Shown here in pieces: positions 25,391-45,168 of a stretch of DNA of 64,000 nt. Within the stretch, counting starts at the first letter, position 1; each line of letters opens with the position of its first letter. The notes below the pieces were generated by a model, which was not told where the DNA came from, ran no database searches, and worked only from the letters and a program-made list of their open reading frames with translations. The stretch is from Flavobacterium sp. KACC 22763 (GTDB taxonomy: Bacteria; Bacteroidota; Bacteroidia; Flavobacteriales; Flavobacteriaceae), in NCBI RefSeq assembly GCF_028736155.1, contig NZ_CP117879.1:4030001-4094000 (forward strand), in the 5' to 3' direction. The position numbers were made by a program, and so were the translations under genes.

Positions 25391-28300
25391 TTATCTGAAT
25401 ACTATTTTTCTAGTGACTGTTTTTCCGTTATCTAAAGTCATTTTTACTAGTAAGATTTGAGGACCCGACTGAAAATTGTTTATAATCCATTCCTTATTTC
25501 CTATTCGCTTTTTAAGATACAGCTGTTTTCCTCCCATGTCATAAATAGCGGCCTCTTGAAGATTTTCCTGCTCAGAAACAGATTGCAGTCTGATGTTTTT
25601 ATCTTTAACAGAAACAACAATGTTCTGATCTTGATTTTCAAAATCTTCATTACCAAGCGATTTACCATCATCATTATTTGTGTAACGCAAGACAAAACGG
25701 TTAAGAAAAGTTCCCGGCGCCGACCTAAATGTATAACCTCCTGTTTTAAGATTATGAATAGTATTTGTTACATTGTCTTGCAAATAAATATTCTGAGTGC
25801 TCAAACTTCCGTCTGTGTGATCTATAGCAATTGTAAAATTACCTTCTGGAATAGTCGACTTATATCCTATAGGAATTGTATCGGTCACAACAAAAGGCAC
25901 TGCTCTCCCCTGAATAACTAATTTTTTATCTTCATTAATACTATAAAAATCAACATAAGGATTTGCATTCAGTGTGACTGCATCATAATTATAATCAAAA
26001 GAATTTGTGGCTCCGGTTACATACCCAATTAGTAATTGTTTAAAAGCTCCTTCTGTATTTGTTAAATTCAACCATACACGATGTTTTTCAATTAGAGTTG
26101 TATTTGCAGATTTATAAAACTGGCTATTATTATTAGCCACTCGCATTGAATTTGTATATACGGGATTCTGTCCTGTTCGGGATTTAGCAAAAAAGCCTTG
26201 TCCTGCAGCAATATATCCCTTTGGTTCACTTTGATTTCCTGGAGACGTTGCTCCAGTTCCCTCCATTGTTCCTACCTCTGTGAGTCCCGATAAGTTATAA
26301 TAAGCAAAATCACTACCAGTATAAGTATAGGTATTGGTACCTGGAATTAAAGTAGGCGGACTATTATGTGTCCAAAAATACAGTGTCCCGTAAAGTCGAT
26401 CTGCATTGTCATGAATAAATTGATCTGCATAAATTGCTGAAGGATATGGATTTCCTAGAAATATTAATTTTTCAGCTGCGCCTGATGGTCCCAAAATTGT
26501 TCCATTATTTGGCACTCCTTTAAATTGTCCACCAAAAATTTGAGTCGAATTCAAGTCATAAAATTGAGGAGATCTAATACTATATCCATTTCCTTTCACC
26601 ATTTCTTCTGCTCCATTACTAATTAGTATCCATTTTTCCGTTACAGAATTGAACTTATGATACTTGTCCCAAAGAGTATTTGGCGATAAATCATGTAATG
26701 TGAAAGCTGGCACACGAGTTACTGGCGAAGACCAATATGTAACATCATAACGTCTTACTGGCGTTGTATTTCTTTTGTACGTAATATTTCCTGTATTATC
26801 TACATCATTAATTTGAACTAAGCTTGAATTGTTTTCAAAAATTAAAGTTCCATTACCAAGTACATTTACTTCATTTGTTACAGTGATTGTATTTGTACCC
26901 TGCACGACGAGAGATCCATTGTTCTGAACCGTTAATCTGCTGACTAAAAAACTGGCATTTGTTCCAGAGATAATCGGATCAAACCCTACTTTTGGAATAT
27001 CTACACAATCAGAAGAAATGGGCACTCCTGTTGGTGTCCAATTTGCAGGATTTTCCCAATTGCCATCAGCACTTCCATTCCATGCTTTGGTAACAAAAGC
27101 ATTTATCATGATCGGTGTAGCTTGTGATACACAGCCCGATGTACTATTTCTTACTTGTACATTGTAACCTCCAGAAGAGAGTCCAGCAAATACGCCAGAA
27201 GTATTACTAAAATCTACCCCGTCTATACTGTAAGTATATCCAGTTCCTGAAGCTGGAGAAGTGACTGTTATAACACCTGTATTATTTACACAGGTTGGCA
27301 ATTGAGTCACAAAAGCTGTTGGCGCAGCTGCAACTGCATTTACTGTCAAAGAAACATTTTGACTTGCTTGGCAACCTCCTGAAGTTGTAATGGTCATTAT
27401 TCCATTGTAAGTTCCTGCAGTGGTATTTGCTGGAACATTCACATTTATAATGTCTCCAGATCCTGAACTAAAAGGAAATGGTGTAGTTCCTTGATCTGTC
27501 AAGGCAACCCAATCAATAGCGTAATTAATTGGAGATCCTGTAGTTGATGAATAACTCAAAGTAGTTGTTTGAGCTGATAAACTTTGGCAAACTGGAGTAA
27601 AGACTCCTGCTGTGTTTATAGTGGGAAGACTGTTAATGGTCAAAGAAATTGCTTGTGTTGTTTGGCAGTTATTTGATGTAAAAATTGTCATTACACCGCT
27701 ATAAGTTCCAACGGCTGCGTTTGCAGGAATAGTAATATTATTGATAATTCCTCCTGCAGAATCAAAAGAAAAAGCAGTAGCTCCTTGATCATTTAATACA
27801 GCCCAATCAATTGAATAACTGATCGGAGTACCTGTTGTTGCAGAATATGGCAAAGAAGCTGTTTGCGCCAATACATTTTGACAAACGGAGGTTAGATTCC
27901 CTGATGTAGTAATTGTTGGGGCTTGATTAACCGTTACTGTAAAATTGCTTGGTGTCGAAATGCACCCATTAGCATTTTTTACTGTTAAAGTTCCTGTATA
28001 AGTTCCTGCAGCTGTTCCCGCTGGAACGGCAATGTTTATTGGACTGGCATTTAAAGTTGCATCTGTAACCGCTAAAAAATTATTGGTCGGACTCGCATTC
28101 CAGACAATGCTATAAGAAGTCGGCGAGTTGGTTGGAGCACTATAGCTTAAACTCGAAGTTTGAGCTGAAGCGTTAAAACAGACGGCATTCGCAGTTCCAA
28201 GCGTTATTGATGGCAATGGATTGACAGTTACTGTAAAATTACTAGGGGCAGAAATACATCCATTCGCATTTTTTACGGTTAAAGTTCCTGTATATATGCC

Positions 28301-30232
28301 CATAGCTGTTCCCGCAGGAACTGAGATGCTTATAGGACTAGCAGTTAAAGTTGCATCTGTAACCGCTAAAAAATTATTGGTCGGACTCGCATTCCAAACA
28401 ATGCTGTATAGTGTCGGTGAGTTTGTTGAAGCGCTATAGCTTAAACTCGAAGTTTGGGCTGAAGCACTAAAACAAACTTCATTGGCAGTTCCAAGCGTTA
28501 TTGATGGCAATGGATTGACAGTTACTGTAAAATTGCTGGGCGTAGAAATACATCCATTCGCATTTTTTACTGTTAAAGTTCCTGTATATGTCCCCGCAGC
28601 TGTTCCCGCTGGAACTGTAATATTAATTGAATTAGCAGGTAAGCTTGCATCAGTAATAGTTCCAAAATTATTCGTCGGACTCGCGTTCCAGACAATGCTA
28701 TATGAAGTCGGAGAATTAGCTGGCGCTGTGTAAGGCAATGTTACATTTTGCAGACTTGCGCTTGTACATACTCCAGCAATACTTCCTAACGAAATTGCTG
28801 GTAATGAATTTACTGTAACTGTAAAACTATATGTAGGAGATATACATCCTGCCGTGTTTGCTACTGTTAAATTTCCAGTATAAGTACCGCCTGGAGTATT
28901 GGCAGGTATTTGAATATTAATTGGGCTTGCCGTTAAAGCTGCATTTGCAACTGGCAAAAAACTATTTGTCGGACTTGCATTCCAAGTTATGCTATAAGTA
29001 GAAGGTAAATTAGTGATATTACTATACGGCAGCGTGGTACTCTGCAGATTAGAACTTGCACATACTGCTGTCGTGGCACCTAATGTTAATGTTGGTTGGG
29101 CCCCCACTATAACATTTACAGAATTATTTGTAGAAATTGCAGAAGTACAGTCTACAGAAGTTAAAGAAGTAACTGTTATTGTACTAGTTCCTGAAACATT
29201 CAATCCAACCGCAGTAAAACTTCCAGATCCATTGGATCCTACCGTCATTGTTGCTGTTAAACCTGTAAAAGATGGACTGCTTCTATTATAAGTTACTGTG
29301 TATGTACCTGCAGGTAATGTCGTTGATGTCCCTGTCAGCTGTACTTGTGAAGTTGTCCCTATCGCCGTGCAAACATTTGCTGCCGATATTCCGGTAAAAC
29401 TGTACGTTTTACAAGTATAAGTAATGTTAACGTGGCCTCTTGCTCCAATTCCGCCATTATATAAAGTTGATGAACTCAATAGAACTAAGGAACTAGCTGC
29501 TCCCGCACCACCTCCTCCATATTCCTGCCCAGGATTTCCTGCACCATTTGCTCCTATTAGGCTAGCATAACCAAGCCCTCCTGCTCCCCCCTTTTGTGGC
29601 CCAGGATTTCCTGCACCTCCACCATTTCCAGAGGAAAGAGCTACATTCAGCAAACTAACATATCCTCCTCCCGAAGCCGATCCATTTGCCGTTGTAAGAT
29701 TTCCTATAGAACCAGTAGTTGCAGACGCCCCATTTGGTGGAGTATTACCTGTAGCTGGAAGATTGGCACTGCCCCCAGCGCCACCTGGCGCATAAAAAAC
29801 ATCCGTGAAATTAGCCACATAAGAAGGTTCTCCATTAGCCCCATTGCTTGAGCTTGACGCTGTAGCTTTCGCCACAACAACATTTAAAGTCGATGTTATT
29901 ATTCCTGTAATTTTTCCTAAAGCATAAGCACCACCAGCTCCACCAGCAGCGCCTCTTCCCCATCCGTTACCACCCAAAGCTGCTCCGCCTCCGCCTCCGC
30001 CTCCCCAAGCTTCAACAGTAACTTCATCAATACCTGCTGGAAGAGGGAAAGAAGGATTACTCGATGGAATTGCATGCACTAAAGTTTGCGCTTTGGAAGT
30101 TGTACAAAAAATTGAGAAAAATAAAATTAGTAGAAATTTAAATCTCAAATTGAAATTTAATGGTTTACCAATATAAATTACTAAAGTTGAAAAACTGAAA
30201 AGATTCAGCACAGTAAGTATTTTTTTTTTCAT
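25391..30232 (-). CDS. giant exported protein: glycine-rich domain, 98-aa SprB-like repeats, shared C-terminal module, T9SS tail
   Basis: The 1613-residue protein has an unusually long N-terminal signal region (about 49 residues, two hydrophobic runs, cleavage near TSKAQ). A glycine-rich beta domain follows (about 80-265; EAWGGGGGGG). Then come four 98-residue repeats (about 380-770; cores SYSIVWNASPTNNF and AGTYTGTLTVKNANGC) and two diverged ones to about 960. A WNGS linker near 1050 opens the C-terminal module shared with three neighbours (YDVTYWSSPV near 1166, GNPYPSAI, YFWTHNSPP, GQGFF, DFYSINEDKKLVIQGRA). The last 80 residues are a sorting-type tail ending TVTRKIVFR. ATG 30232 is preferred; a GTG at 30301 extends the frame. 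A surface or secreted adhesin-like role is inferred. Confidence 0.88.
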   Translation of the reverse strand: MKKKILTVLNLFSFSTLVIYIGKPLNFNLRFKFLLILFFSIFCTTSKAQTLVHAIPSSNPSFPLPAGIDEVTVEAWGGGGGGGAALGGNGWGRGAAGGAGGAYALGKITGIITSTLNVVVAKATASSSSNGANGEPSYVANFTDVFYAPGGAGGSANLPATGNTPPNGASATTGSIGNLTTANGSASGGGYVSLLNVALSSGNGGGAGNPGPQKGGAGGLGYASLIGANGAGNPGQEYGGGGAGAASSLVLLSSSTLYNGGIGARGHVNITYTCKTYSFTGISAANVCTAIGTTSQVQLTGTSTTLPAGTYTVTYNRSSPSFTGLTATMTVGSNGSGSFTAVGLNVSGTSTITVTSLTSVDCTSAISTNNSVNVIVGAQPTLTLGATTAVCASSNLQSTTLPYSNITNLPSTYSITWNASPTNSFLPVANAALTASPINIQIPANTPGGTYTGNLTVANTAGCISPTYSFTVTVNSLPAISLGSIAGVCTSASLQNVTLPYTAPANSPTSYSIVWNASPTNNFGTITDASLPANSINITVPAGTAAGTYTGTLTVKNANGCISTPSNFTVTVNPLPSITLGTANEVCFSASAQTSSLSYSASTNSPTLYSIVWNASPTNNFLAVTDATLTASPISISVPAGTAMGIYTGTLTVKNANGCISAPSNFTVTVNPLPSITLGTANAVCFNASAQTSSLSYSAPTNSPTSYSIVWNASPTNNFLAVTDATLNASPINIAVPAGTAAGTYTGTLTVKNANGCISTPSNFTVTVNQAPTITTSGNLTSVCQNVLAQTASLPYSATTGTPISYSIDWAVLNDQGATAFSFDSAGGIINNITIPANAAVGTYSGVMTIFTSNNCQTTQAISLTINSLPTINTAGVFTPVCQSLSAQTTTLSYSSTTGSPINYAIDWVALTDQGTTPFPFSSGSGDIINVNVPANTTAGTYNGIMTITTSGGCQASQNVSLTVNAVAAAPTAFVTQLPTCVNNTGVITVTSPASGTGYTYSIDGVDFSNTSGVFAGLSSGGYNVQVRNSTSGCVSQATPIMINAFVTKAWNGSADGNWENPANWTPTGVPISSDCVDIPKVGFDPIISGTNASFLVSRLTVQNNGSLVVQGTNTITVTNEVNVLGNGTLIFENNSSLVQINDVDNTGNITYKRNTTPVRRYDVTYWSSPVTRVPAFTLHDLSPNTLWDKYHKFNSVTEKWILISNGAEEMVKGNGYSIRSPQFYDLNSTQIFGGQFKGVPNNGTILGPSGAAEKLIFLGNPYPSAIYADQFIHDNADRLYGTLYFWTHNSPPTLIPGTNTYTYTGSDFAYYNLSGLTEVGTMEGTGATSPGNQSEPKGYIAAGQGFFAKSRTGQNPVYTNSMRVANNNSQFYKSANTTLIEKHRVWLNLTNTEGAFKQLLIGYVTGATNSFDYNYDAVTLNANPYVDFYSINEDKKLVIQGRAVPFVVTDTIPIGYKSTIPEGNFTIAIDHTDGSLSTQNIYLQDNVTNTIHNLKTGGYTFRSAPGTFLNRFVLRYTNNDDGKSLGNEDFENQDQNIVVSVKDKNIRLQSVSEQENLQEAAIYDMGGKQLYLKKRIGNKEWIINNFQSGPQILLVKMTLDNGKTVTRKIVFR
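27340..29100 (-). repeat. tandem 294-bp coding repeats (four close, two diverged)
   Basis: The period of 294 bp (98 codons) is set by the recurring string TCGGACTCGC at about 28087, 28381 and 28675. Neighbouring copies 2-4 are nearly identical over long runs, indicating recent amplification; two copies at 27340-27935 are diverged. Confidence 0.85.
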
Positions 30233-30413
30233 CTTGTGGCATTTTAATAATTGAAAAATAAATTCAAACTCAACAAGATTAATTGCAAAATCAAGTAACA
30301 CAGAGTAAAAAGAAGCACTTCAATTTTACAATCAATGTAAGGCAGATAAAATGACAGTTATTGAAACTGTATTTTTGAAGAAAAAAATTTAACTGCTAGG
30401 CTTATAGAAGGCA

Positions 30414-30638: not shown

Positions 30639-30661
30639 GCAAGCGCATTTTATTTCATTTT

Positions 30662-33600
30662 TTAAAAAATCACCTTTTTTGAAGTTGATTTGCCATTCTC
30701 AAAAATGACTTTCACTAATAAAACCTGATGCGGAGAAAACAAATTTTGAACGCTAACTTTTCTAGTTTCAAGTTTATCTTTTTTGTACAATTCATTTCCA
30801 GAAATATCAAATATTCCCACCTTTTTAATGTTTTCCTTAAATGACTCAATATTTATAATTTGATTTTTGACATATATCAGAGTAGTTTGAGAATCTTCCT
30901 TAAAAGTTGTTTCCCCTAAAGTTTTATTAGAATAAACTATTGAAAAACGATTATTAAAAGTTCCTACTTCAGAATCAAATTGATATGCTCCTTCCGAAAG
31001 ATTATGAATTTTATTTAAAGTTTGATCCACTAAAAAAATATCAATTTCATTAAACAATGGATCCTGATTATCTATCTCTAATTTCAAAGTAGTTTTAGCA
31101 GTCGTTTTATATCCTAAATTAAAAGAATCACTTTCTATCCAAGGCATTGCTTTTCCTTGAATTACTAGTTTTTTATCTTCCAAAATACTATAAAAATCAA
31201 TCTCTTGACTTGAACCGAAAGATAAAGCATCATAATAATCTAATGCGTTTGAAGCTTCTTTAGCGTAACCCAATAAAATTTGCTTCAAGGCATTTTTCCC
31301 ATTATGAAGATTCAGCCAAAATCGAAGTCTATCATTTTCTTTTTCAGCTTGAGAGCTATTACTTGGTCTAAAAAAGGAACTGTTGTGAGCTTTAATTCTC
31401 ATACTATTGTTAAATTGAATAAAGCCTTCTTCTTTGCTTTGTATAAAAAAGCCTTGCCCAGAAGCTATTGTGCCATCTGGTGTTGTAGTATAGTTTTCCG
31501 AATTTAAAGAAGAGCTTATTCCAACGCCCCCTAAAAGATTATATACAACACAATCATCTGCTGAATATTTGCCATTAGAAGGCGGCGTGCTATGTGTCCA
31601 AAAATAAAGAGCTCCATATATTTTTGAGGCATTTGATTTTATAAAAAGATCTGCATTTATCGCAGAAGGATACGGATTTCCTATCAGATAATAACCATCC
31701 GCAACTTTAAATTCCGCTTCTATTTTACCATTATTCGGAATCCCTTTAAAAGTTCCTTCAAACACTTCCCGTTCTGTAATAGAATAATTTTGTGGCGCCC
31801 TAATACAGTAACCTTGCCCCGGAATCATGGTCATTGTCCCGTTATAATTTACGATCCAACGAGAAGTTGGGTCATGCCAATAGTATTTATCTGCAAGAGT
31901 ATTAGGCGAAAAATCTACCATTGTCTGTCTATCAACAGGTGAAGACCAATATGTCATATCGTAACGAATTACTGGTTTTGTTTTTCTTATTAAATGAATA
32001 ATCCCAGTATTTACTATCTCATCATCTGACTGATATAAACTTGCTGAGTCTTCTAAGACCAAAGTTCCAAATCCTGTATATCCAAACTCTATCGAAAGGG
32101 CATTTTTCTCTAGCAAGGTTACAATTTTGCCCTGATCAATATGGCAGCCACAAACAGCAGTAGTAGTTAATTGTGGAAAATTTTCTTTAAAAAACACATC
32201 TTTTCCTGCTGAAGGCGGACCATTTGACCAAGAGATTCCATTCCAAACCGTAGTGTTTACACAAAGTTTTAAACGCGCAATTCTATGCTTTGAAATACCT
32301 GAAACCGAATTAAAATTACCTCCAATGAGTAATTTATATTCGTCAGTAAATTTCATGTCAAAGAGTGTATTATTTAGAGGCGAGGTAAAGGAATTATCAA
32401 TAGCTCCTGTAGACAATAATCTAATAAGTCTGGAAGAAACGCTATTTTTATATGTTCCTGAGAAAGAACCTCCGACCAAAATTCGATCATCAGGCTGCAC
32501 TAAAATAGAGCGAACATCTCCTTTACTAAAACCTGTTCCTGACTCAAATGTTGAGTCAAGACTTCCATCACTGTTCAGTCTAACTATTCTTTTCTGAGGA
32601 TTTCCATCAAAAATTAAAAATGAACCTCCAACAATAATCTTTTGATCCGACTGAAGTGCCAATGCGTAGACATATTTATCAAAACCACTTCGAATATTAA
32701 AACTAGAATCAATACTTCCATCAGAATTTAAACGAACCAAGCCTGAAAAAGACTGTTCATTAAATGTTTTAAAATGTCCTCCAAGAAGAATTTTCCCATC
32801 AGGTTGTATAAGTATCGTTTCAATAGTACCATCTGCGCCCAAACCAATATTGAAGCTGTTGTCTTTTGATCCATCTGGCAGAAGTCTAACAATCCTACTA
32901 GTATTTACATTTGATCCATTATATTTTGTGAAAGCGCCCGCAACAATTATTTTTTGATCAGACTGAATGGCCAGTGCATAAACTTGAGCATTAAAACCAT
33001 CTCCATTATTAAAAGAATTATCTATTTCTCCATTTGAAAAAATCCTAACTAGCCTATTATTGAGTACATCATTATATCTTGTAAAGTTTCCTCCAATAAT
33101 TACTTTTCCATCTGACTGCAATGCTGTTGTTTTCACCACACTATTTGCTCCAGATTTTCCTGCATTAAAAGAAGCATCAGTAGAACCATCTCCTAAAAGA
33201 CAAGTTATTTTTGAAACCGATACTCCATTAAATTTACTGAAATTACCCGCAACAATTGTTTTCTGATTTGGAAGAGGCAAAATACTCAAAACAGAATTAT
33301 CAAAACCAATACCCGAAGACAAATACCCAATATCATGTTCCCCATCACTGCTAATTTTAGCTAATCTTCCTTGATTTTGTCCATTAAAAACAGAAAAAGA
33401 ACCGCCAACAAACCAAGAACCTTCTTCATCAAATTCTAAACTTAAGACAGATGCAGAAGCAGGCCCTGAACCAATATCAAAATCTGATTTTAGGGTTCCA
33501 TCTGGATTAAGAAAAACTAATCTATTAACTTCACTATTATTATAAAACCCTGTAAAAGATCCGCCCACCATTAAATTTCCGTATGGATCCATTTTGAGCG

Positions 33601-34516
33601 TTTGCACACCTTCCTTACTAAAACCAAATCCTGTTTGAAAACTTTCATCTTTCGTTCCGTCAGCATTCAAACGAATAAGACGATTGGATGCAATATCATT
33701 AAAGGCAGTAAAATTTCCTCCTAATACAATTTTTCCATCTGGTTGCAATACAATCGCATTAATATCATCATTGAAGCCGGTACCGCTATTAAAAGTCGAG
33801 TCGAAACTTCCGTTACTATTTAGACGCACAATTCTATTTGCAGGAATTCCATTAAATGTGATAAAATTTCCAGTAAGAATTATTTTTTCATCATCAGTTA
33901 TTTTCGCATGAGTTATATTTAATGCCGAACCAGAGCCCGTCAAAAAAGAAGAATCGAGCGTTCCGTTTGGAAACAAACGCACCACTCGATTTACGGTAGA
34001 ATTTGCATATTTTGTAAAACTTCCAACAATTATTATTTTTCCATCTGACTGCGTTGCAATATCATAAACAATTCCAGTTGTTGCCCCTATCGTAGTATTA
34101 AAAGTAGCATCATAAGATCCGTCAGAGTTTAAGCGAATCAGTCTTCCTGCACTAATTCCGTTGTACATCGTAAAATTTCCACCCAAAATAATTTTTCCAT
34201 CTGGCTGTAAATACGATGCGTAAATTTTTCCATTAAAACCAGTGCCTGTATTAAAACTCTCATCAATGGAACCATTGGAATTTAAACGAGTAAGATAAGA
34301 AACTGGAGATCCGTTTAGGCTGAGATAATCGCCACCAACAATCAAGCTGCCATTATTTTGTAAAAGGAGAGTTCGTACAACCCCATCAAAACCATCGCCG
34401 TTTTGCCCGTCATCAAGTGTATTAAACAAATGATCAACTTTCCCTTGCTGTGCTAGAAGGTTTGAATTTGGCAAGAATAAAAATAGAATTAGGCAATAGA
34501 ATAAATTTCTAATCAA
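30662..34516 (-). CDS. giant exported protein: 14 delta-60 (DUF5122) propeller repeats, shared C-terminal module, T9SS tail
   Basis: The 1284-residue protein has a signal peptide (LILFLFLPNSNLLAQQ). Residues about 30-750 hold 14 repeats of roughly 51 residues with the delta-60 pattern DGKIILGGNFTxxNG...RLIRLNSDGSxDxSFN. Fourteen units would suit two seven-bladed beta-propellers (inference). A WNGISWSNGPP linker near 756 leads into the C-terminal module shared with the neighbours (YDMTYWSSPV near 855, FSPNTLADKYYW, GNPYPSAI, YFWTHSTPP, GQGFF, DFYSILEDKKLVIQGKA, then a sorting-type tail ending KSTSKKVIF). It is likely exported through the T9SS and attached to the surface or released. Its own promoter and terminator make it a single-gene unit. 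Confidence 0.9.
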   Translation of the reverse strand: MIRNLFYCLILFLFLPNSNLLAQQGKVDHLFNTLDDGQNGDGFDGVVRTLLLQNNGSLIVGGDYLSLNGSPVSYLTRLNSNGSIDESFNTGTGFNGKIYASYLQPDGKIILGGNFTMYNGISAGRLIRLNSDGSYDATFNTTIGATTGIVYDIATQSDGKIIIVGSFTKYANSTVNRVVRLFPNGTLDSSFLTGSGSALNITHAKITDDEKIILTGNFITFNGIPANRIVRLNSNGSFDSTFNSGTGFNDDINAIVLQPDGKIVLGGNFTAFNDIASNRLIRLNADGTKDESFQTGFGFSKEGVQTLKMDPYGNLMVGGSFTGFYNNSEVNRLVFLNPDGTLKSDFDIGSGPASASVLSLEFDEEGSWFVGGSFSVFNGQNQGRLAKISSDGEHDIGYLSSGIGFDNSVLSILPLPNQKTIVAGNFSKFNGVSVSKITCLLGDGSTDASFNAGKSGANSVVKTTALQSDGKVIIGGNFTRYNDVLNNRLVRIFSNGEIDNSFNNGDGFNAQVYALAIQSDQKIIVAGAFTKYNGSNVNTSRIVRLLPDGSKDNSFNIGLGADGTIETILIQPDGKILLGGHFKTFNEQSFSGLVRLNSDGSIDSSFNIRSGFDKYVYALALQSDQKIIVGGSFLIFDGNPQKRIVRLNSDGSLDSTFESGTGFSKGDVRSILVQPDDRILVGGSFSGTYKNSVSSRLIRLLSTGAIDNSFTSPLNNTLFDMKFTDEYKLLIGGNFNSVSGISKHRIARLKLCVNTTVWNGISWSNGPPSAGKDVFFKENFPQLTTTAVCGCHIDQGKIVTLLEKNALSIEFGYTGFGTLVLEDSASLYQSDDEIVNTGIIHLIRKTKPVIRYDMTYWSSPVDRQTMVDFSPNTLADKYYWHDPTSRWIVNYNGTMTMIPGQGYCIRAPQNYSITEREVFEGTFKGIPNNGKIEAEFKVADGYYLIGNPYPSAINADLFIKSNASKIYGALYFWTHSTPPSNGKYSADDCVVYNLLGGVGISSSLNSENYTTTPDGTIASGQGFFIQSKEEGFIQFNNSMRIKAHNSSFFRPSNSSQAEKENDRLRFWLNLHNGKNALKQILLGYAKEASNALDYYDALSFGSSQEIDFYSILEDKKLVIQGKAMPWIESDSFNLGYKTTAKTTLKLEIDNQDPLFNEIDIFLVDQTLNKIHNLSEGAYQFDSEVGTFNNRFSIVYSNKTLGETTFKEDSQTTLIYVKNQIINIESFKENIKKVGIFDISGNELYKKDKLETRKVSVQNLFSPHQVLLVKVIFENGKSTSKKVIF

Positions 34517-34664: not shown

Positions 34665-37600
34665 TTACAAATTAGAAAAAATAGCTTTCTTAGTAAAAGT
34701 ATGACCATTTTCTAAGGTTATTTTTACCAATAATACTTGATCTGTAGAATGCAAGTTTTTAATTTGTAATTCTGAGGCATTTACTTTACTATTAGTGTAT
34801 AATAACTGCGCTCCAATGTTATAAACATTTACTTCTTTTATTGTTTCTTTAGATGAAGCAATATTTACCGTTTTGTCTTTAACAGAAACTAAAACTGTAT
34901 TTTCAAGATTCTCAAATTCACCTGTTCCTAAAGTTTTGTTTGTATAACGAAGTGAAAAACGAGTTGTATTTGTTTCTCCGGCACTAAAGAAAGTATAATT
35001 TTCTTTTCGTAAATCTATAATTTTACCTGTCGTTTTGTCTTCTAGATATACATCCTGAGTAGCAAAAAACCCATCTGCGTGATCAATAGAAATGGTAAAG
35101 TTACGATCTCCCTTATCATCAACACCGCTCCTGTATCCTAAAGGAATCACTTCTGTATTATCAAAAGGAAGTGCTCGACCTTGAACTATCAGGTTTTTAG
35201 ATTCGTTAATACTATAAAAATCGATGTAAGAGTTGCTTCCCATAGTCGTTGCATCATAAAGTGCATCATTACTATTTGTTGCTCCTTCAATATAACCAAT
35301 TAATATCTGTTTGAAAGCTCCTTGTGAATTGGCAATATTTAACCAAAGACGATTTTTTTCAACTTCACTAGTTTTATCCGTTTTATAAAACTGCGTATTC
35401 TTTGAGCTTCCCTCACGAAGGCCATTATTAAATTTAATTACAGTTGCAGTTGGAGGTGCATTTGTAAAAAAGGCTTGTCCTGCCCCGATGAATCCATCAA
35501 ATTCATCTGCACCTGAAACAATCTCCCCACTTACTCTTACCGAACCTGTCCCGTTATAAATAACAAAATCTGAACTTAGGTATTTAAAAGTATTAGTTCC
35601 TTGTTCAAGTTGTGGAGGCTGATTATGCGTCCAAAAATATAATGATCCTATATGATCTTTATTTTCGAGCATTAACTTAGCTGCATTTATTGGAGAAGGA
35701 TATGGATTTCCTACTAAATTTAACTTATCATGCTCTACTGGAACTGACCAATCCCCATTGTTTGGAGTACCAACAAATGTACCATCAAATACCGAAGGAG
35801 ATACTAAATCAAAATATTGTGGAGCTCTAATACTATAACCTTGTCCCTCCTCCATAATTCTTGTACCATTCTTGTTAAGAACCCATTTCGAAGTAGCAGA
35901 ATTCCAATAATGGTATTTATCAAACAAAGTATTTGGAGAAAAGTCATGCATAGACAAACCGTTTACTGGTGAAGACCAATAAACAACATCATAACGGCGC
36001 ATGCTAACTTTTCTTTTATAAGAAATACTACCCGTGTTAACAGCGTTTGCTCCCTGTAATAAACTTGATCCACTTTCAAATATCAATTTACCATTACTTG
36101 ATATTCCGTTTGTAATAGTCAAAGTCATTTCAGACGGAATAATTACGTTAGGATCTGTTGCGCCATTTGGAACATTAATATTTAAAGAACATGCTGTTAT
36201 ATTTGGTTTAGCAGCGGAAAATGGCTGATTTGGCACAACTGACGAAATCGTTACACTCTTACTTCCGTCTGGTTCACCATTAGACCATCCTGAACCATTC
36301 CATGTTGTGTTTGAACTAATGTCGTTTATAGTAACAGTAGCTGAACTTGAAGTACAATTTAAATCATTTGTAACTGTAAAGTAATACGTTCCTACTATTA
36401 AATCTTGAATAGGAAGAGTAGAACTTGTTCCAGAAAATGATCTCGCCAACGTAGTCGTTCCTGTCTGATTAATTGTCCAATTTCCAGATAAACCTGTTAG
36501 TGTTATGCTTCCAAAACTTCCGCAAGATACATCGTTGTTTTTTGTAATTGATGGCGCTGTAGGTGCTTGTTTTACTGCTATTGTACCTGTTGTTGAAATA
36601 TTTCCACAACCATTAGTTAAAGTTACTGTATAATTAAATGGGCTACCCACTTCTGTTGTAGGAGTACCGCTAATTGTAACTACATTTCCTGACCAGCCTC
36701 CAGTAACTCCGTTAGGCAGACCTGAAAATGTTGCTCCTGTCGCCCCTGTTGTAGTATATTTAATATCTGAGATTGCAGTATTGGCACAAATAGTTTGCGA
36801 GTCTGTTCCTACTACTGAACTGAGTGTAATTGTGTTTGTAGTAGGAGTAAGCGTACCTGTCGTTTGAGCCGTGCTGGTTCCGCACGCGTTTGTTGCGGTT
36901 ACTGAAACTGTTCCTTGCCCGCTTCCAACTGTAATAGTTGACGATGCTGTATTGGCTCCACCTGTTACTGACCAGCCTGTTCCCGTTACTGACCATGCAT
37001 ATGATGTTGCGCCAGAAATAGGTGAAATGCTGAATGTGTTATTTGATGATCCTGCGCATAAATTGACTGGAGGAGTAATCGCTCCTGGCTGTGGCGGAAC
37101 TGTGGTCGGAGTAAGCGTACCTGTTGTTTGGGCTATACTGGTTCCGCACGCATTTGTTGCCGTTACTGAAACCGTTCCTTGACCGCTTCCAATTGTAATA
37201 CTTGCTGATGCTGTATTACCTCCCGCTGTTACTAACCAGCCTGTTCCCGTTACTGACCATGTGTATGACGTTGCACCAGAAACTGTTGCAATGCTGAATG
37301 TATTATTTGTCGATCCTGCGCATAAATTAGTCGGCGGGGTAATCGCTCCTGGCTGAAATGGTGCTGTAGTCGGATTGAGTGCTGAAGTAGTACGAGCTAT
37401 ACTGTTTCCACAGCCATTTATAGCTATTACTGAAACTGTCCCTTGTCCACTTCCAATTGTAATGCTTGCCGATGCCGTATTGGCTCCACCTGTTACCGAC
37501 CAGCCTGTTCCTGTTACTGACCATGCATATGATGTTGCGCCAGAAACTGGTGAAATGCTGAATGCATTATTTGTTGATCCTGCGCATAAATTGGTCGGCT

Positions 37601-39728
37601 GGGTAATCGCTCCTGGCTGAGATGGTGCTGTAGTCGGATTGAGTGCTGAAGTAGTACGAGCTGGGCTGGTTCCGCACGCGTTTGTAGCCGTTACTGAAAC
37701 AGTTCCTTGACCGCTTCCAATTGCAATGGTTGCTGATGCTGTATTTCCACCTGATGCCACTGACCAGCCTGTTCCTGTCACTGACCATGTATAAAAAACT
37801 GCCCTTGCAACTGGTGCAACGCTAAATGTACTAGTTGTTGATCCAGCACATATATTAGCAGGCTGGGTAATCACTCCAGGCTGTGGTGGCGTCGCTGAAC
37901 TTGCACTTATCCTAACAATGTTACTTGGCGCATACGAACATCCTGAACTTCCACTAATACTTACCAATCGTCTATAGTATACTACATTATTTGCTGTTAT
38001 TGATGGTGGTGAATAATTTCTTGAAGTTCCAGCTGTATTGATGTTATTAAAAGCAACTCCATCTGTTGATGACTGCCACTGAAAACTTAATTGAGGATTT
38101 TGCAAATTAGGATCACCTGAACTATATTGAAGCGATCCTACAATTTGTCCAGGTGTATAAGTACCTGTTCCACAATAATCAACTGTTGCTGGAGCTGTTA
38201 TAGTATTACTATTTGTATCAAATGGTGCCATTGTAAACGTAACTGAATTCGCATCATCATTTTCATAGTAATCAAATACTAAATCGTCATCGCCATCTAA
38301 ATTTACAACTACATTGGTATATGTTGTTGAAGCTTGTTCTACCCATCGATCCAAAATATTTGTTCCATTTAAATATAGTCGAACTCCGTCATCTCCACTT
38401 ACAGTAATCATATAACAACCACTCTTTGTTGTTTTCATTCTATGTCTTACTGCAAAACCCTGCGTATATACCTGCCCACGTGTTGCTCCTCCTGACATAA
38501 ATGAAAAACAAGTATAGCCTGCACCGAAATTTTCATTTATAGACTCTGAACTAACATTATAATACCCCAAATACTTATCACTTGTAAAAGTAATCGGTTC
38601 CTTCCCACCAGCAGTGTAGACATGAGCCACCCAGTTATTTGTTCCATAATCATTTTGGTTATCTTGTGAATTTCCTATTGCTGTTTGAGTAACAGTGATT
38701 CCTCTACTTCCAACCGTTCCATTTGCTGCACATCCCGCTGCAGACAAGACAACCTTCACTTGTCCTGAAACTGACGGAATCCAATCAGTTATAGTAGCTC
38801 CACTAACTCCCGAGGCTGAAGTAGCTGGTGATACATTTGCATCTGTTGCCGCATCAAGTATTGTTAGATTTTCATCTAAACTAGCAAAAGCATTCTGTAC
38901 TGAAAAAGTATATTTAAAGCCTTTTATTACATTCACCAAAGCATATTGCCCAGCTATTACATTTCCTGTTGTATAAGTAGTTGTACTTCCTGTACAAAAA
39001 GTGTATGGTCCACCAACTGAATTAGTAGGAACTATTGTAGCTGGTATATTATATGTTATCTTTATTTGACCTGCTCCTCCAGAACCTCCTGCTCTATTTG
39101 AATTGTTTCCTACGTAGGATCCTCCTCCACCTCCTCCTGGCGCATTACCAGAATTTCCATCACCTCCATTACCTGCGTTGCTTCTCGACGCTCCACCTGT
39201 TCCACCGCCAGTACCTCCACCATTTCCACCTGCACCTCCTTGTGAAGTATTCCCAACATTTCCATTAGCCCCTTGACTAGTAGAATCACCCATACTCCCT
39301 ACAGCTGTACCTACACCACCTAAAACAGTTCCCCCATTTGGATTTAATCCTCCTTGACCTCCTTTAGCGATCAAAACAGTAGCAGATGAAAACCATGTAT
39401 CATCACCAGATGCCCCTCGTGAAGGATTTGTTGAACCAGCTGTTGCAGCGGCGATACTACAATTAAAAACTTGATTAGGAGAGACTGAAAATGTAGATTT
39501 TGCATACGCTCCTCCAGCTCCTCCTCCACCTCCACCTGCGTTATTAGCTGTAGTTCCCCCTCCAGCTCCTCCAGCTCCCCAACACTCTACAGTGATCGAA
39601 GTAACACTGCAAGGCACTGTAAAAGAGGTTTGACCGGCATTTAATGTAATTGTTGTGGAAGTCTGCCCAAAACCAGCAGAATGTAGAAAAATAAAAAATA
39701 AAAACGAGTAAAGTAATTTTCTCATCAT
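34665..39728 (-). CDS. giant exported protein: glycine-rich domain, PA14-like domain, 88-aa Ig-like repeats, shared C-terminal module, T9SS tail
   Basis: The 1687-residue protein has a signal peptide (SFLFFIFLHSAGFGQ). A glycine-rich domain covers about 40-225 (VECWGAGGAGGG), similar in kind to that of the 1613-residue neighbour. A PA14-like domain follows (about 360-507; MKTTKSGCYMITVSGDDGVR, LYLNGTNILDRW). Four 88-residue Ig/PKD-like repeats span about 613-963 (ATSYAWSVTGTGWSV, IGSGQGTVSVTATNACG). A WNGSGWSNGEP linker near 1142 opens the common C-terminal module (YDVVYWSSPV near 1253, FSPNTLFDKYHYWNS, GNPYPSPI, YFWTHNQPP, DFYSINESKNLIVQGRALPF) and the tail ends in FTKKAIFSNL. PA14 domains often bind carbohydrate; adhesion or glycan binding is inferred. 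Confidence 0.9.
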   Translation of the reverse strand: MMRKLLYSFLFFIFLHSAGFGQTSTTITLNAGQTSFTVPCSVTSITVECWGAGGAGGGTTANNAGGGGGGAGGAYAKSTFSVSPNQVFNCSIAAATAGSTNPSRGASGDDTWFSSATVLIAKGGQGGLNPNGGTVLGGVGTAVGSMGDSTSQGANGNVGNTSQGGAGGNGGGTGGGTGGASRSNAGNGGDGNSGNAPGGGGGGSYVGNNSNRAGGSGGAGQIKITYNIPATIVPTNSVGGPYTFCTGSTTTYTTGNVIAGQYALVNVIKGFKYTFSVQNAFASLDENLTILDAATDANVSPATSASGVSGATITDWIPSVSGQVKVVLSAAGCAANGTVGSRGITVTQTAIGNSQDNQNDYGTNNWVAHVYTAGGKEPITFTSDKYLGYYNVSSESINENFGAGYTCFSFMSGGATRGQVYTQGFAVRHRMKTTKSGCYMITVSGDDGVRLYLNGTNILDRWVEQASTTYTNVVVNLDGDDDLVFDYYENDDANSVTFTMAPFDTNSNTITAPATVDYCGTGTYTPGQIVGSLQYSSGDPNLQNPQLSFQWQSSTDGVAFNNINTAGTSRNYSPPSITANNVVYYRRLVSISGSSGCSYAPSNIVRISASSATPPQPGVITQPANICAGSTTSTFSVAPVARAVFYTWSVTGTGWSVASGGNTASATIAIGSGQGTVSVTATNACGTSPARTTSALNPTTAPSQPGAITQPTNLCAGSTNNAFSISPVSGATSYAWSVTGTGWSVTGGANTASASITIGSGQGTVSVIAINGCGNSIARTTSALNPTTAPFQPGAITPPTNLCAGSTNNTFSIATVSGATSYTWSVTGTGWLVTAGGNTASASITIGSGQGTVSVTATNACGTSIAQTTGTLTPTTVPPQPGAITPPVNLCAGSSNNTFSISPISGATSYAWSVTGTGWSVTGGANTASSTITVGSGQGTVSVTATNACGTSTAQTTGTLTPTTNTITLSSVVGTDSQTICANTAISDIKYTTTGATGATFSGLPNGVTGGWSGNVVTISGTPTTEVGSPFNYTVTLTNGCGNISTTGTIAVKQAPTAPSITKNNDVSCGSFGSITLTGLSGNWTINQTGTTTLARSFSGTSSTLPIQDLIVGTYYFTVTNDLNCTSSSATVTINDISSNTTWNGSGWSNGEPDGSKSVTISSVVPNQPFSAAKPNITACSLNINVPNGATDPNVIIPSEMTLTITNGISSNGKLIFESGSSLLQGANAVNTGSISYKRKVSMRRYDVVYWSSPVNGLSMHDFSPNTLFDKYHYWNSATSKWVLNKNGTRIMEEGQGYSIRAPQYFDLVSPSVFDGTFVGTPNNGDWSVPVEHDKLNLVGNPYPSPINAAKLMLENKDHIGSLYFWTHNQPPQLEQGTNTFKYLSSDFVIYNGTGSVRVSGEIVSGADEFDGFIGAGQAFFTNAPPTATVIKFNNGLREGSSKNTQFYKTDKTSEVEKNRLWLNIANSQGAFKQILIGYIEGATNSNDALYDATTMGSNSYIDFYSINESKNLIVQGRALPFDNTEVIPLGYRSGVDDKGDRNFTISIDHADGFFATQDVYLEDKTTGKIIDLRKENYTFFSAGETNTTRFSLRYTNKTLGTGEFENLENTVLVSVKDKTVNIASSKETIKEVNVYNIGAQLLYTNSKVNASELQIKNLHSTDQVLLVKITLENGHTFTKKAIFSNL
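36840..37890 (-). repeat. tandem 264-bp coding repeats (four copies)
   Basis: The motif GATCCTGCGCATAAATT recurs at 37048, 37312 and 37576, with a diverged fourth at 37840; the period is exactly 264 bp (88 codons). Long stretches between adjacent copies are nearly identical. Confidence 0.9.
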
Positions 39729-40012: not shown

Positions 40013-40495
40013 ATGAAAAAGCCGACGAACAGCACTTTTACTATCAAAGAAGCTTTACAAAAATTAGAACATTTTTGTGCTTATCAAGAACGCTGTCACG
40101 ATGAAGTAGTTTCAAAATTGTATGACCTAAAAATGACTCGTGATGAGATTGACAGTATTGTCGTACAGCTCATTGAAGGGAATTTTCTAAACGAAACTCG
40201 TTTTGCCTGCAGCTTTGCCAGAGGCAAACACAGAATCAAGCATTGGGGAAAAATTAGAATCACAAACGAACTTAAAGCAAGAAACATTTCATCAACAAAT
40301 ATCACTTTGGCTTTAAAAGAAATTTCTTCTGAAGAATATTTCGAAACTTTCGAAAACTTAGCCGAAAGATGTTGGAATAGCATCTCTGAAACTAACCAAC
40401 TTAAAAAACGCAAAAAGTTCTGCGACTATATGTTGCGAAGAGGTTATGAAAGTAATTTAGTTTACGAAAAAGTTAAAGAACTAGAAGAAAACTAA
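40013..40495 (+). CDS. recX: Regulatory protein RecX
   Basis: The 160-residue protein is an all-helical RecX: three repeats of a three-helix unit, with ALQKLEHFCAYQERCHDEVVSKLYDL, FLNETRFACSFARGKHRIKHWGKIRI and a C-terminal KRKKFCDYMLRRGYESNLVYEKV. RecX modulates RecA filaments, usually as an inhibitor. It is not next to recA here. It lies between two of the giant exported-protein genes, in opposite direction to the one on its left. No terminator or shared promoter with the next gene is evident. Confidence 0.93.
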   Translation: MKKPTNSTFTIKEALQKLEHFCAYQERCHDEVVSKLYDLKMTRDEIDSIVVQLIEGNFLNETRFACSFARGKHRIKHWGKIRITNELKARNISSTNITLALKEISSEEYFETFENLAERCWNSISETNQLKKRKKFCDYMLRRGYESNLVYEKVKELEEN

Positions 40496-40902: not shown

Positions 40903-43900
40903 ATGAAAAAAACTCTACTTTTATTCTTATTATTGCCTTTTTTTGGATTTGCTCAAACTGCTTTAGTAAAATGGGACGCAGCAAATTCTGGCAATAGATT
41001 TGCTCCTGTTCCAATAGGAACAATTAACGGTTCTGATTTATCAGCAACTGTAAGTAATTTATACGACTCTAACAATGCTGCTAATACTTTTTTTAAGAGT
41101 AGTGGCTGGCCAACACCTCAAAGCAAAGGTGGCCAATATGATCTTACAAAATATGTACAATTTGCTCTGGGGCCTAAAACAGGAAGCAAGGTAAATTTAA
41201 GCACATTCGTTTTTGAATGTAAATCTCCAGGTTCTCAAAAATATACAATTAAATACTCTAAACAATCTGATTTCTCATCCGGTGTTTATAATCTTCTTAC
41301 CGCAACATCAGTTACAAGTGATTGGATACAATACACATTAAATTTTTCTGAAGAAATAAACCCTGTTTTACCTACTGAAAAAGTTTATGTTAGAATTTAT
41401 GCTTATTACACTAATAACGAATTCCAAATTAGAACTGGAATCAATAATGTTGTACCTACCATCAATGGTGAAGTATTAAGCTTTGATGCTACTAAAATAT
41501 TAGCTATCAACGATTACGTTACCACTACAAAAGATGTAGCAGTTAATATAAATCCGCTAAGCAATGACGTAAACAAAGCCAACGTAAACACTTTGGTTAT
41601 TTCTACACCTCCATCTGCTGCCGAAGGAACTGCGATACTTAATCCTGATAAAACTATAACTTTTAACCCTGCTGCAGGATTTATTGGTACTTCTGTTTTC
41701 AACTACACCATCTCAAATGCAACGGAAACATCTACAGGAACCATAAAAGTAACCGTAAATCAAGACACAACAGACTTTCTATCGCTTTGGGATGGAGCCG
41801 ATGACACTTTTAATCCCGTAACCAAACAATATGTAGACCCAAACTCTCCAATTACAAAGGCAGGCACTAACATAAGTTTAAATTATACATTTCATAACAT
41901 AAATAATGCTTTTTTTGAAACTAACGGTTGGCCTACTCCTTCTAATAACCCTAATGTTGTAAATACAGCAGACGAAACTAAGTACATTGAATTTAAAATC
42001 GCACCCGATTCTAAACACAAATTAAATCTTAAACAATTTAATTTTACTTATAGAGGAAAGAATCAAAAGTTTCTTGTAAAATATTCTAAGAATCCAGATT
42101 TTACAAATGGTGCTCAGATTTTAATTCCAGAGAGTAATGCTGCCTCATCATGGACGCCATTAACTAATAATATCGCATCAGGTCTAAACACTTTATTGCC
42201 TGGAGAAACCCTGTACATTAGATTTTATGTTTATGCTAGCTACAATACTTTTGAAATTAAAAATGGTAATGGAAGCCCAGAAGGCCCAGTAATCACAGGA
42301 ACAATAGAAGATGTTTTTACCTTAACAGCAAAGAATGATATTGTTTCAACTCCATCAAATCAGGCCGTAACCATTCCTATTTTAGATAATGATGTTATTG
42401 GTGGCTACCCTCTAGAAGCCATAACAGTAACACAACCTAGTAATGGTACTGTAACTGTAAACGGCCTTAACAATGTAACCTTTACACCTGCAGCAAATTT
42501 TTCTGGATCTGCAACATTTACATACACTCTTAAAAACACTAATTCTAATTATTCTTCTGCTACTGTAACTGTTAATGCTACAGCTCCTGTTTGTAATCCA
42601 GGTGACCAAATTAAATACGGAGATAATAAATGGATAGGATATGTGTATAAAACAACAACTTTGCCACCAACTGGCACTCCTGCAGACCCAAATCCTGCAA
42701 CGCCTACTACCATTCCGATTTCAAACATGACCTATATTGGACAAGTTGAAGAAAACAAACTATTTAATCGCGATATTGTACAAGGAACTGTTACTGGATT
42801 AAATGCGCAATTGTGCGAAACTCCTTCAGACTATTTCTTTGTTCGTTATAAAATGAAAGCCAAAGTTGATGTAACGGGCACTTACAATATTACTGTTGGA
42901 GGTGATGATTATTATCGTTTATATTTAACTACAGCTTCCGGAACTACAAAAATAATTGATCAATGGTCTGGTGTCAATTATTCTCAAAAGGCAGTAAATA
43001 TGCAATTGACAGCAGGTGTAGAATATACTTTTGACCTAGAATATTACGAAAAAACAACCGATTCAAGAATACAGTTCTCTATGGGATTAATAGCAGGAAG
43101 CAATACTGCGCCTTATTCATTTGGAGATAATTTATGGAAAGTTTACGGATTTACGACTGCAGATAGTGGTAATAATTTTACAATTCCACAAGGAAGTTAT
43201 GCTGGATATTATAGTGTAAATCCTGTAAATATTAATACAACAGATTCATTTGCTCTTGCAGAATCACCTTCTTTTGATCCGGCTAAATCTGGCTGGCAAG
43301 GAGCTCCCATGCCTCAAGATTATTTTACTCTGGTTTACAAAAGACAAGGGTTTCCTTGCGGAACTTACCAAATACAAATTACAAACTGCGATGACCAAGT
43401 GCAAATTTTCATTGATGATGAAAATGCTACAACTCCAGTTTACACTTCGCCAGGAAACATTAATGATAATGCACCTGTAAACAATGTATTAACCACTCCT
43501 AGAGTTTTAGGCAAAAATTCTAAAGTCGAAATTCGATTAAAAGACTACAAACAAAGTGCAAGACTGAATTTAAATTTTATTAAAACCCAAACAGACTATA
43601 ATGGTGTAGCTACTCCAAATGGAAGTTCCTTATTGATCAGTTCAAATACAGCATTAACTGCGGACCTTACAGTTTGCTCTTGTACAATAAACGACAAAGT
43701 TACTTTGACGGTTCCAAAAGACATAACTTTAACTGTTGATGAAGATATAAATGTTCTAGGAGAAGGAAAACTGCTGATTTTAGACGGAGGATCGTTGCTT
43801 CAAACTTCAACAGCCAAAAACATGCTTACTGGAAGTGCAAAAGCTTTTGAAATACAAAGAACAACCAGCGTAGTTCGTTACGACGTAACATACTGGTCAT

Positions 43901-45168
43901 CACCTGTAATCGGTTTATCTATGCATGATTTGTCTCCGCAAACTTTGTTTGACAAATATCATTACTGGAATGCGACTACCACAAAGTGGGTTCCTAGCAA
44001 CTATGGTATAAAAATAATGGAAGCGGGGTACGGATACAGTATTAGAGCACCACAAACATATGATCTTACAACTCCAAGCAACTTTACTGCGAAATTTACA
44101 GGGGTACCAAATAATGGAAACATTCCAGTCCCAACGGTAAGCGGAAAATTAAATTTGTTAGGCAACCCTTACCCATCTGCTATTGATGCTGAAAAGTTCA
44201 TTACAGACAATGGAGATGTTGGACCTTTATATTTCTGGTCACATAATACGCCTCCTAAAAGAATTGAGGGAACCAATACATTTACTTATGATAGTGCCGA
44301 TTTTGCTGTTTTCACATTAACGGGACAAACACAACCATCGCCAAAAGGACAAGTTCCTAACGGTTATATTGCTGTTGGACAAGGATTTTTTACTCAGCCA
44401 AATGTAAGCACTATTTTATTTACAAATGATCAAAGAGTTAAAGCCAAAAATACCACATTCTTTAAGACTACTGAAAAAACAAGTCAAATCGAAAGAAATT
44501 GTTTATGGCTAAATCTGACCAATTCAGATGGGGCATTCAAGCAAATGCTTATTGGATATGCAACTGGGGCAACCAATAGTTTAGATTATAATTATGATGC
44601 CACAACAATGGGAAGCAACTCCTACATTGATTTTTATAGTATTAACGAAACTAAAAAACTAACTGTTCAAGGTCGCGCCCTACCTTTTGACAATTCTGAT
44701 ATTGTTCCTATTGGTTACAAAAGCACTGTTGAAGGCAATCTTACAATTTCTATTGATCATGCTGACGGTTTCTTTGATACTCAGGCAGTTTATCTAGAAG
44801 ACAAAACAACAGGTAGTATAACCGATTTACGTACTTCCAATTATACTTTTAAAACAGCCGTCGGAACCTTTATAGATCGTTTTGTATTGCGTTATACAAA
44901 TAAAACCTTAGGAACAGATGATTTCGAAAATGTAAAAGATGGAATTTTGGTTGCTGTAAAATCAAAAGCAATAAATGTTACTAGCGGAGCTGAAAACATT
45001 AAAGAAGTACAAATCTATACGATCGGTGGTCAAGCGCTTTATAGCAAAAATAAAATTGAAGCAAAAGAATTAAATATTACAAACTTGCATTTTAGTAATC
45101 AAGTTTTACTGGTAAAAGTAATGCTAGAAAATGATCATACGGTCACAAAGAAAATTATATTCAATTAA
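40903..45168 (+). CDS. giant exported protein: duplicated novel N-terminal modules, cadherin-like and PA14-like domains, shared C-terminal module, T9SS tail
   Basis: The 1421-residue protein has a signal peptide (LLLFLLLPFFGFAQ). Two copies of an unfamiliar module of about 170 residues lie at roughly 20-190 and 295-470 (cores GWPTPQSKGG / GWPTPSNNPN and YTIKYSKQSDF / FLVKYSKNPDF). Each is followed by a cadherin-like unit (AINDYVTTTKDVAVNI, AKNDIVSTPSNQAVTI). Two PA14-like domains follow (about 570-720 with YNITVGGDDYYRLYL, and 740-890). The C-terminal module shared with three neighbours starts near 905, with YDVTYWSSPV near 996, GNPYPSAI, YFWSHNTPP, GQGFF and DFYSINETKKLTVQGRALPF. The tail ends TVTKKIIFN. 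Probably T9SS-exported and surface-associated. Confidence 0.9.
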   Translation: MKKTLLLFLLLPFFGFAQTALVKWDAANSGNRFAPVPIGTINGSDLSATVSNLYDSNNAANTFFKSSGWPTPQSKGGQYDLTKYVQFALGPKTGSKVNLSTFVFECKSPGSQKYTIKYSKQSDFSSGVYNLLTATSVTSDWIQYTLNFSEEINPVLPTEKVYVRIYAYYTNNEFQIRTGINNVVPTINGEVLSFDATKILAINDYVTTTKDVAVNINPLSNDVNKANVNTLVISTPPSAAEGTAILNPDKTITFNPAAGFIGTSVFNYTISNATETSTGTIKVTVNQDTTDFLSLWDGADDTFNPVTKQYVDPNSPITKAGTNISLNYTFHNINNAFFETNGWPTPSNNPNVVNTADETKYIEFKIAPDSKHKLNLKQFNFTYRGKNQKFLVKYSKNPDFTNGAQILIPESNAASSWTPLTNNIASGLNTLLPGETLYIRFYVYASYNTFEIKNGNGSPEGPVITGTIEDVFTLTAKNDIVSTPSNQAVTIPILDNDVIGGYPLEAITVTQPSNGTVTVNGLNNVTFTPAANFSGSATFTYTLKNTNSNYSSATVTVNATAPVCNPGDQIKYGDNKWIGYVYKTTTLPPTGTPADPNPATPTTIPISNMTYIGQVEENKLFNRDIVQGTVTGLNAQLCETPSDYFFVRYKMKAKVDVTGTYNITVGGDDYYRLYLTTASGTTKIIDQWSGVNYSQKAVNMQLTAGVEYTFDLEYYEKTTDSRIQFSMGLIAGSNTAPYSFGDNLWKVYGFTTADSGNNFTIPQGSYAGYYSVNPVNINTTDSFALAESPSFDPAKSGWQGAPMPQDYFTLVYKRQGFPCGTYQIQITNCDDQVQIFIDDENATTPVYTSPGNINDNAPVNNVLTTPRVLGKNSKVEIRLKDYKQSARLNLNFIKTQTDYNGVATPNGSSLLISSNTALTADLTVCSCTINDKVTLTVPKDITLTVDEDINVLGEGKLLILDGGSLLQTSTAKNMLTGSAKAFEIQRTTSVVRYDVTYWSSPVIGLSMHDLSPQTLFDKYHYWNATTTKWVPSNYGIKIMEAGYGYSIRAPQTYDLTTPSNFTAKFTGVPNNGNIPVPTVSGKLNLLGNPYPSAIDAEKFITDNGDVGPLYFWSHNTPPKRIEGTNTFTYDSADFAVFTLTGQTQPSPKGQVPNGYIAVGQGFFTQPNVSTILFTNDQRVKAKNTTFFKTTEKTSQIERNCLWLNLTNSDGAFKQMLIGYATGATNSLDYNYDATTMGSNSYIDFYSINETKKLTVQGRALPFDNSDIVPIGYKSTVEGNLTISIDHADGFFDTQAVYLEDKTTGSITDLRTSNYTFKTAVGTFIDRFVLRYTNKTLGTDDFENVKDGILVAVKSKAINVTSGAENIKEVQIYTIGGQALYSKNKIEAKELNITNLHFSNQVLLVKVMLENDHTVTKKIIFN

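Follow-up and report, generated by a model that had tools for sequence, protein, structure and literature searches.

The stretch of DNA analysed here (the window) comprises 64,000 nucleotides of the genome of Flavobacterium sp. KACC 22763 (contig NZ_CP117879.1, positions 4,030,001 to 4,094,000), and it contains a cluster of four large genes, P0001 to P0004, placed around recX. Each predicted protein has a variable N-terminal part, here called the payload, and a constant C-terminal region that comprises a platform of about 357 residues and a C-terminal sorting domain (CTD). An initial annotation, made from the sequence alone, had proposed these four open reading frames (ORFs), and their ends and lengths were recovered unchanged (Table 1). 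The P0001 gene starts at an ATG, and a longer GTG frame reaching position 30301 is probably spurious. The same annotation took the payloads to be unrelated. Overall they do differ, but a PA14 region is common to P0003 and P0004 (28% identity over 184 residues, BLASTP E 1e-7), and a Pfam scan places the glycine-rich domain PF21722 in both P0001 and P0003. The duplicated module described for P0004 is real, with residues 20-285 and 286-475 showing 34% identity across 60% of the first stretch. The delta-60/DUF5122 propeller of P0002 is recognised as 10 stretches by NCBIfam and as 13 by Pfam. The only enzyme-named Pfam matches above cut-off in the four proteins are glycoside hydrolase 123 N-terminal domains in P0001, which we take to be immunoglobulin-like (Ig-like) and non-catalytic.

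Table 1. Features of the gene cluster, in window positions.
Feature	Position	Strand	Description
P0001 gene, slot 1 (remZ position)	25391..30232	-	1613 residues: glycine-rich domain, Ig-like tandem repeats, platform, CTD
P0001 platform	25655..26764	-	
294-nucleotide tandem repeat array, P0001 payload	27925..28711	-	
P0002 gene, slot 2	30662..34516	-	1284 residues from TTG: delta-60/DUF5122 propeller payload, platform, CTD
P0002 platform	30918..31945	-	
P0003 gene, slot 3 (most variable slot)	34665..39728	-	1687 residues: glycine-rich, PA14, PKD-like repeats, platform, CTD
Left copy, platform-coding inverted similarity across recX	34686..35381	-	partner 44470-45153
P0003 platform	34921..36002	-	
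264-nucleotide tandem repeat array (PKD-like repeats), P0003 payload	36837..37883	-	
recX gene	40013..40495	+	between slots 3 and 4
P0004 gene, slot 4	40903..45168	+	1421 residues: duplicated N-terminal module, Big_9/cadherin-like, PA14, platform, CTD
P0004 signal peptide	40903..40953	+	17 codons, by inspection
P0004 platform	43837..44907	+	357 residues
Right copy, platform-coding inverted similarity across recX	44470..45153	+	partner 34686-35381
P0004 C-terminal sorting domain	44938..45165	+	superposes on RemA CTD

The C-terminal parts are similar in every pair of the four proteins (39-53% identity over 501-637 residues, E 8.7e-104 to 9.5e-170 by BLASTP). This similarity runs far past the last 80 residues, and the ordered motifs named in the initial annotation are present in all four, with single changed residues giving SPQTL in P0004, GQAFF in P0003 and QGKA in P0002. 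The proposal that the constant part far exceeds a sorting signal also holds, given the platform that lies upstream of that signal. In a profile search, the full module was matched at only four loci of the 5.56 Mb genome (one contig), all within the cluster, and a fifth match (E 8.5e-6) covered the tail only. The idea that the platform is itself sorting signal is ruled out by this fifth match: it belongs to another type C protein of the genome, which resembles the constant region in its tail alone. The match lies at G000:C1:2618286-2618585 (L005), in a 1582-residue frame bearing the genome's fifth type C tail above the NF033708 cut-off. The predicted model of the P0004 platform is a mostly-beta unit with short helices (predicted local distance difference test 92, predicted template modelling score 0.90). 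A platform-like predicted fold is also seen in a marine phage protein, BFVD A0A8D9C8P8, named “putative hemin binding protein” (E 4e-17, query template modelling score 0.69, 19% identity).

Searched against PDB sequences, the constant-region profile matched RemZ (695.7 bits, E 3.7e-208) and RemA (673.1 bits, E 2.5e-201) over 539/540 positions. A 298-residue RemA probe is encoded at 100% identity in genome G195, whose locus has RemZ in slot 1 (2401 bits over 1114 residues) and RemA to the right of recX (3204 bits over 1436 residues). The G195 locus and the window have a common gene order of glyS, M12B-type peptidase, ribF, cupin, cluster members, recX, further members and bioF. We then see the same surroundings in a set of 31 clusters, picked from good matches apparently on one contig and not at random: recX is present in all 31, ribF and cupin in 28, the M12B peptidase in 26 and bioF in 23, as counted in fetched stretches whose ends cut some clusters (e.g. 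G348, G180, G162 and G155). A delta-60 member of the P0002 type occurs in 30 of the 31. The SUEL lectin domain PF02140 was found in RemA and not in P0001-P0004 (Pfam scan, E 0.1), so the four proteins are not filed as RemA itself. On the sequence evidence, the cluster corresponds by synteny to the F. johnsoniae remZ-remA locus and encodes four proteins of the RemA/RemZ family. An undescribed family is ruled out by the RemZ and RemA profile matches and by the G195 locus that encodes both, since this known family sits at the syntenic remZ-remA locus. The earlier view that the function of the constant part is undescribed therefore applies to the platform, as far as the literature was searched, and not to the family.

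Some further observations concern these clusters. Window positions 20025-22694 encode an M12B-like metallopeptidase with a type A tail of the type IX secretion system (T9SS) and a P-domain; such a gene lies near the RemZ slot in 26/31 clusters. Possible broken members include a delta-60 gene with an in-frame TAG (G015 slot 2, L136), a split frame (G088 slot 1, L130) and several fragments in G289 (L169, L170). Genes delimited by script start at the first ATG, making some lengths too short, above all in slot 2.

The tails of all four proteins score 46-54 bits against NF033708 (T9SS type C, cut-off 40 bits), in line with the type C assignment of the initial annotation. None reaches the 23-bit cut-off of TIGR04183 (type A): P0004 scores best, at 15.6 bits, and the other three are unlisted at E 0.1. 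The tails of RemA and RemZ are likewise labelled type C by NCBIfam and fall below the TIGR04183 cut-off. There is thus a conflict of labels, as the structural literature calls the CTD Type A for both RemZ (PMC10994853) and RemA (PMC12618676). A cryo-electron microscopy paper describes the RemA and RemZ CTDs bound to SprA-PorV, and in RemZ the lysine K1110 contacts PorV (PMC10994853). The KK-I-F motif covers the position of this lysine. A lysine stands among the last nine residues in 133/133 rows of the tail check, which, like the platform tree, used 133 of 138 platform genes after five platforms shorter than 330 residues were dropped. The P0004 CTD superposes on that of RemA (8gl6_D) with a deviation of 1.3 Å over 76 residues, and the window's genome encodes SprA (2791 bits) and GldJ (1073 bits). 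We infer that the four proteins would be exported through Sec and then the T9SS, with hand-over of the CTD to PorV and display of payload and platform.

Alternatively, the four proteins might be secreted enzymes or public-goods proteins that are released after CTD removal and do not act as adhesins. The type C family does include the chitinase ChiA (PMC10202324), and RemA-HaloTag occurs in the medium too (PMC12618676). However, the glycoside hydrolase 123 domains of P0001 are the sole enzyme-named matches, and the other payload domains are PA14, cadherin-like, PKD and propeller in the window proteins, with SUEL lectin and GEVED in other genomes, which makes an enzymatic role very unlikely in our judgement.

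The annotation's suggestion of interchangeable payloads was examined at orthologous gene positions. Ten of the 31 genomes represent the window's clade, and within it payloads were compared pairwise for each slot, a replacement being scored where platforms are at least 70% identical but payloads are less than 50% covered or less than 45% identical. Replacement pairs number 0/41 at slot 1, 0/24 at slot 2, 21/24 at slot 3 and 15/24 at slot 4. For G000 and G365, slot-3 DNA is 95.6% identical from 900 base pairs (bp) upstream through codon 13; the payload then gives no collinear match, only one displaced 212-bp repeat match, and 92.8% identity resumes 278 codons ahead of the platform and continues to the gene end. 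G168 and G266 show a like pattern. At slot 4, the conserved 5' block stops at codons 18-19 in 20/26 split pairs, a point that inspection places at the signal-peptide cleavage site; in 23/26, the sequences become conserved again 58-73 codons before the platform. Among 45 pairs per slot, split and continuous DNA blocks number 29 and 1 for slot 1, 0 and 29 for slot 2, 24 and 0 for slot 3, and 26 and 13 for slot 4, the rest having no detectable lead or trailing block.

Payloads from 136 genes were also clustered. With inverted genomes allowed for, the 30 slot-3 payloads make up 17 clusters, of which 7 occur in the window's ten-genome clade (the count is 15 if the gene left of recX is simply taken), and 30 delta-60 payloads form one cluster. 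Ten slot-3 genes of other genomes carry SUEL lectin (RemA), GEVED, DUF642, PA14, PKD-like, Ig-like and glycine-rich domains, two of the ten giving no Pfam match at E 1e-5. The comparison of orthologous positions thus supports interchangeable payloads, most clearly at slot 3, and suggests that the members retain a shared rear half and that at least one of them repeatedly has its front half replaced. One further candidate event, payload import at slot 4 between G000 and G276 (payload 92% identical, platform 68%), was set aside: plain conservation explains it, because the flanking recX and cupin genes are 93% and 95% identical, and it is not used as evidence.

Platform-coding DNA is also similar in inverted orientation across recX. 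The window pair listed in Table 1 is 72.4% identical over 709 bp. Elsewhere, 22 genomes contain a platform pair with 76% identity or more; their best pair lies inverted across recX in 19 of them and is direct in G180, G162 and G277. Inverted pairs reach 97.6% over 1160 bp in G382, 92.1% in G324 and 90.6% in G079, and in G195 RemA and a 1021-residue neighbour form such a pair (95.6% over 1410 bp). Most similarity blocks start near the platform start and extend toward the gene end, and the best blocks have a median identity of 79.6% in 53 inverted pairs against 74.5% in 30 direct pairs. In the platform tree, 29/29 delta-60 platforms make up a single clade, and those of slot 1 group together; the recX-flanking platforms of one genome are often mutual sisters, but not in the window's clade. 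In 5/31 clusters the orientation of recX is reversed with respect to its flanks, and a member of about 1020 residues, present in 12 genomes, lies right of recX in seven unreversed clusters and left of it in 5/5 reversed ones. These patterns of sequence suggest that inversion and gene conversion probably proceed through homologous recombination between platform repeats.

Inverted repeats of up to 97.6% identity around a segment that is reversed in five of 31 genomes could also belong to a dedicated invertible switch, similar to a shufflon or phase-variation system, that selects the expressed adhesin. No recombinase family, and no dedicated site-specific recombinase, was recognised by Pfam and NCBIfam among the ten neighbouring ORFs scanned, and the tree calls for just two changes. 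Inversion would, moreover, be expected to exchange platforms and not promoters; because each payload would travel with its own upstream region, an on/off switch is down-weighted, and it is the least probable of the explanations weighed here.

The platform itself is most likely an invariant mount that presents the payload. Alternatively, it might be a targeting module that docks adhesins of the RemA family to a moving cell-surface structure, turning payloads into motile adhesins. RemA-HaloTag with its own CTD forms mobile foci in 86% of fluorescent cells (n = 86), and SprB-HaloTag carrying the RemA CTD is immobile (PMC12618676), so the CTD alone does not account for the mobility of RemA; RemA, RemZ and the window proteins have the platform in common. 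On the other hand, RemA foci are immobile in 55% of fluorescent cells and move helically only once the SprB CTD is given (PMC12618676), and RemA mobility could reside in the payload or be free diffusion. Because of the immobile foci, the lack of helical RemA motion without the SprB CTD and the conclusion of Paillat et al. 2025 (PMC12618676) that the CTD dictates localisation and fate, we consider docking somewhat unlikely and keep the presentation mount as our default.

Overall, we consider it quite probable that the cluster encodes four surface adhesins of the RemA/RemZ family at the counterpart of the remZ-remA locus, and that this locus diversifies by recombination. Family, synteny, the pattern of replacement, homogenisation and inversion can be read in the sequences; secretion, surface display, the mechanism of recombination and the role of the platform are inferred. 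On this reading, each protein consists of a signal peptide, a variable payload that faces outward, a short beta-roll, the platform and a 76-residue CTD. The CTD would lead the protein through SprA to PorV, as others describe for RemA and RemZ, and would then probably be removed, leaving payload and platform on the surface or released, with the platform as a constant mount for display. In slot 3, left of recX, whole payload cassettes would be swapped, bounded by the signal-peptide region on one side and the constant region on the other; in slot 4, to the right, divergent variants of one loose payload family would alternate between similar boundaries. In many other species, platform-coding DNA on the two sides of recX is homogenised in inverted orientation. 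Homologous recombination is the probable cause, and it would also have inverted the recX segment in some lineages.

Several points weigh against this interpretation. The whole analysis is computational. The species pairs are not independent, coming from ten related genomes, and the clearest events are the two sister pairs G000/G365 and G168/G266; in G006 vs G063, slot 3 retains a displaced similar stretch. Slot 1 is also split at the DNA level (29/45 pairs, median 5' block end at codon 85), through internal repeats, we think, so split blocks alone are no proof of exchange. At slot 2, payload identity exceeds platform identity in 15/45 pairs without any swap. In the window's clade the slot-3 and slot-4 platforms are not homogenised and give 10 orthologous rows each; given this and their 72% DNA identity, recombination between them is probably inactive there now. 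Of the two changes that parsimony assigns to recX inversion on the flank-gene tree, only one is forced by well supported branches, and in 9/31 rows of that tree roughly half of the columns or fewer are filled. Finally, since PMC12618676 assigns localisation to the CTD, no proven job is left for the platform.

Slot 4 tells against the interpretation as well: single-linkage clustering chains 28/30 of its payloads, and 10/10 of those from the window's clade, into a single group, which means that the payloads replacing one another there are distant relatives and not unrelated. This chaining, the orthology of slots 3 and 4 in the clade and the modest identity of the constant regions within the window's genome (39-53%) would all suit ordinary paralogous T9SS adhesins that arose by old duplication and fast N-terminal divergence, with no cassette exchange. 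We nevertheless find this improbable, because gradual divergence predicts neither the limitation of turnover to slots 3 and 4, nor boundaries clustered at the signal peptide and the constant-region edge, nor two sister-genome pairs whose upstream DNA and platforms are 92.8-95.6% identical but in which most of the slot-3 payload lacks any collinear match.

A bolder version, which we regard as possible but doubtful, is that the remZ-remA locus diversifies by exchanging cassettes between a fixed signal peptide and a fixed platform whose fold would be unmatched in the PDB, that the RemA lectin is one of many interchangeable occupants of a hypervariable slot, and that the platform and not the payload places the protein on the gliding surface. 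If true, each Flavobacterium species would owe its specificity in gliding and attachment to the particular cassette next to recX. RemA is a named gliding adhesin studied mainly in one strain, and our comparison suggests that its lectin occupies a slot that turns over between close species as the large platform persists. This gives a testable division of roles, with the platform for presentation or docking and the payload for binding; it points to a natural set of sites where fusions for Flavobacterium surface display are tolerated, and offers a way to ask how a gliding bacterium alters what it sticks to. Within the literature searched, the turnover of payloads, the concerted evolution of platforms next to recX and the uncharacterised platform itself seem to be new, the family and locus being known; a search reaching few subscription papers found no paper describing inversion of recX or turnover of payloads at the locus.

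Elsewhere in the window, adjacent paralogous genes with NUDIX and NrtR-type winged-helix domains (5175-5912 and 5948-6649; 75% DNA identity over 654 bp) lie beside a TonB-dependent receptor and are probably a regulator pair. Short tandem repeats of 7 and 14 bp lie at 48539-48608, downstream of atpD.

Among known systems, SprB-type (type B) gliding adhesins are likewise large T9SS surface adhesins, SprB acting in gliding (PMC12618676), but the window tails are type C and RemA-like; no PorP/SprF-like gene was recognised by Pfam or NCBIfam among the ten neighbouring ORFs scanned. The type A sorting domain (TIGR04183/PF18962) has the same CTD fold and a C-terminal lysine, and the window proteins, RemA and RemZ all fall below the TIGR04183 cut-off. 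With the ChiA-type type C domain (NF033708) the window tails agree in all four cases, although the genome's fifth NF033708 protein (place 2618286) differs from the four in sharing only the tail of the constant region. RemZ (Fjoh_0803; PDB 8gl8, 8glm, 8gln) occupies slot 1 beside cupin and ribF, as P0001 does, and its closest window platform is that of P0001 (58%), but their payloads are shared only in part (61% over 134 residues). RemA, the F. johnsoniae gliding adhesin (PDB 8gl6), has a homologous constant region and CTD, the same recX-flanked locus and the same NCBIfam tail label; it differs in its SUEL lectin payload, and the recX segment of G195 is inverted relative to the window.

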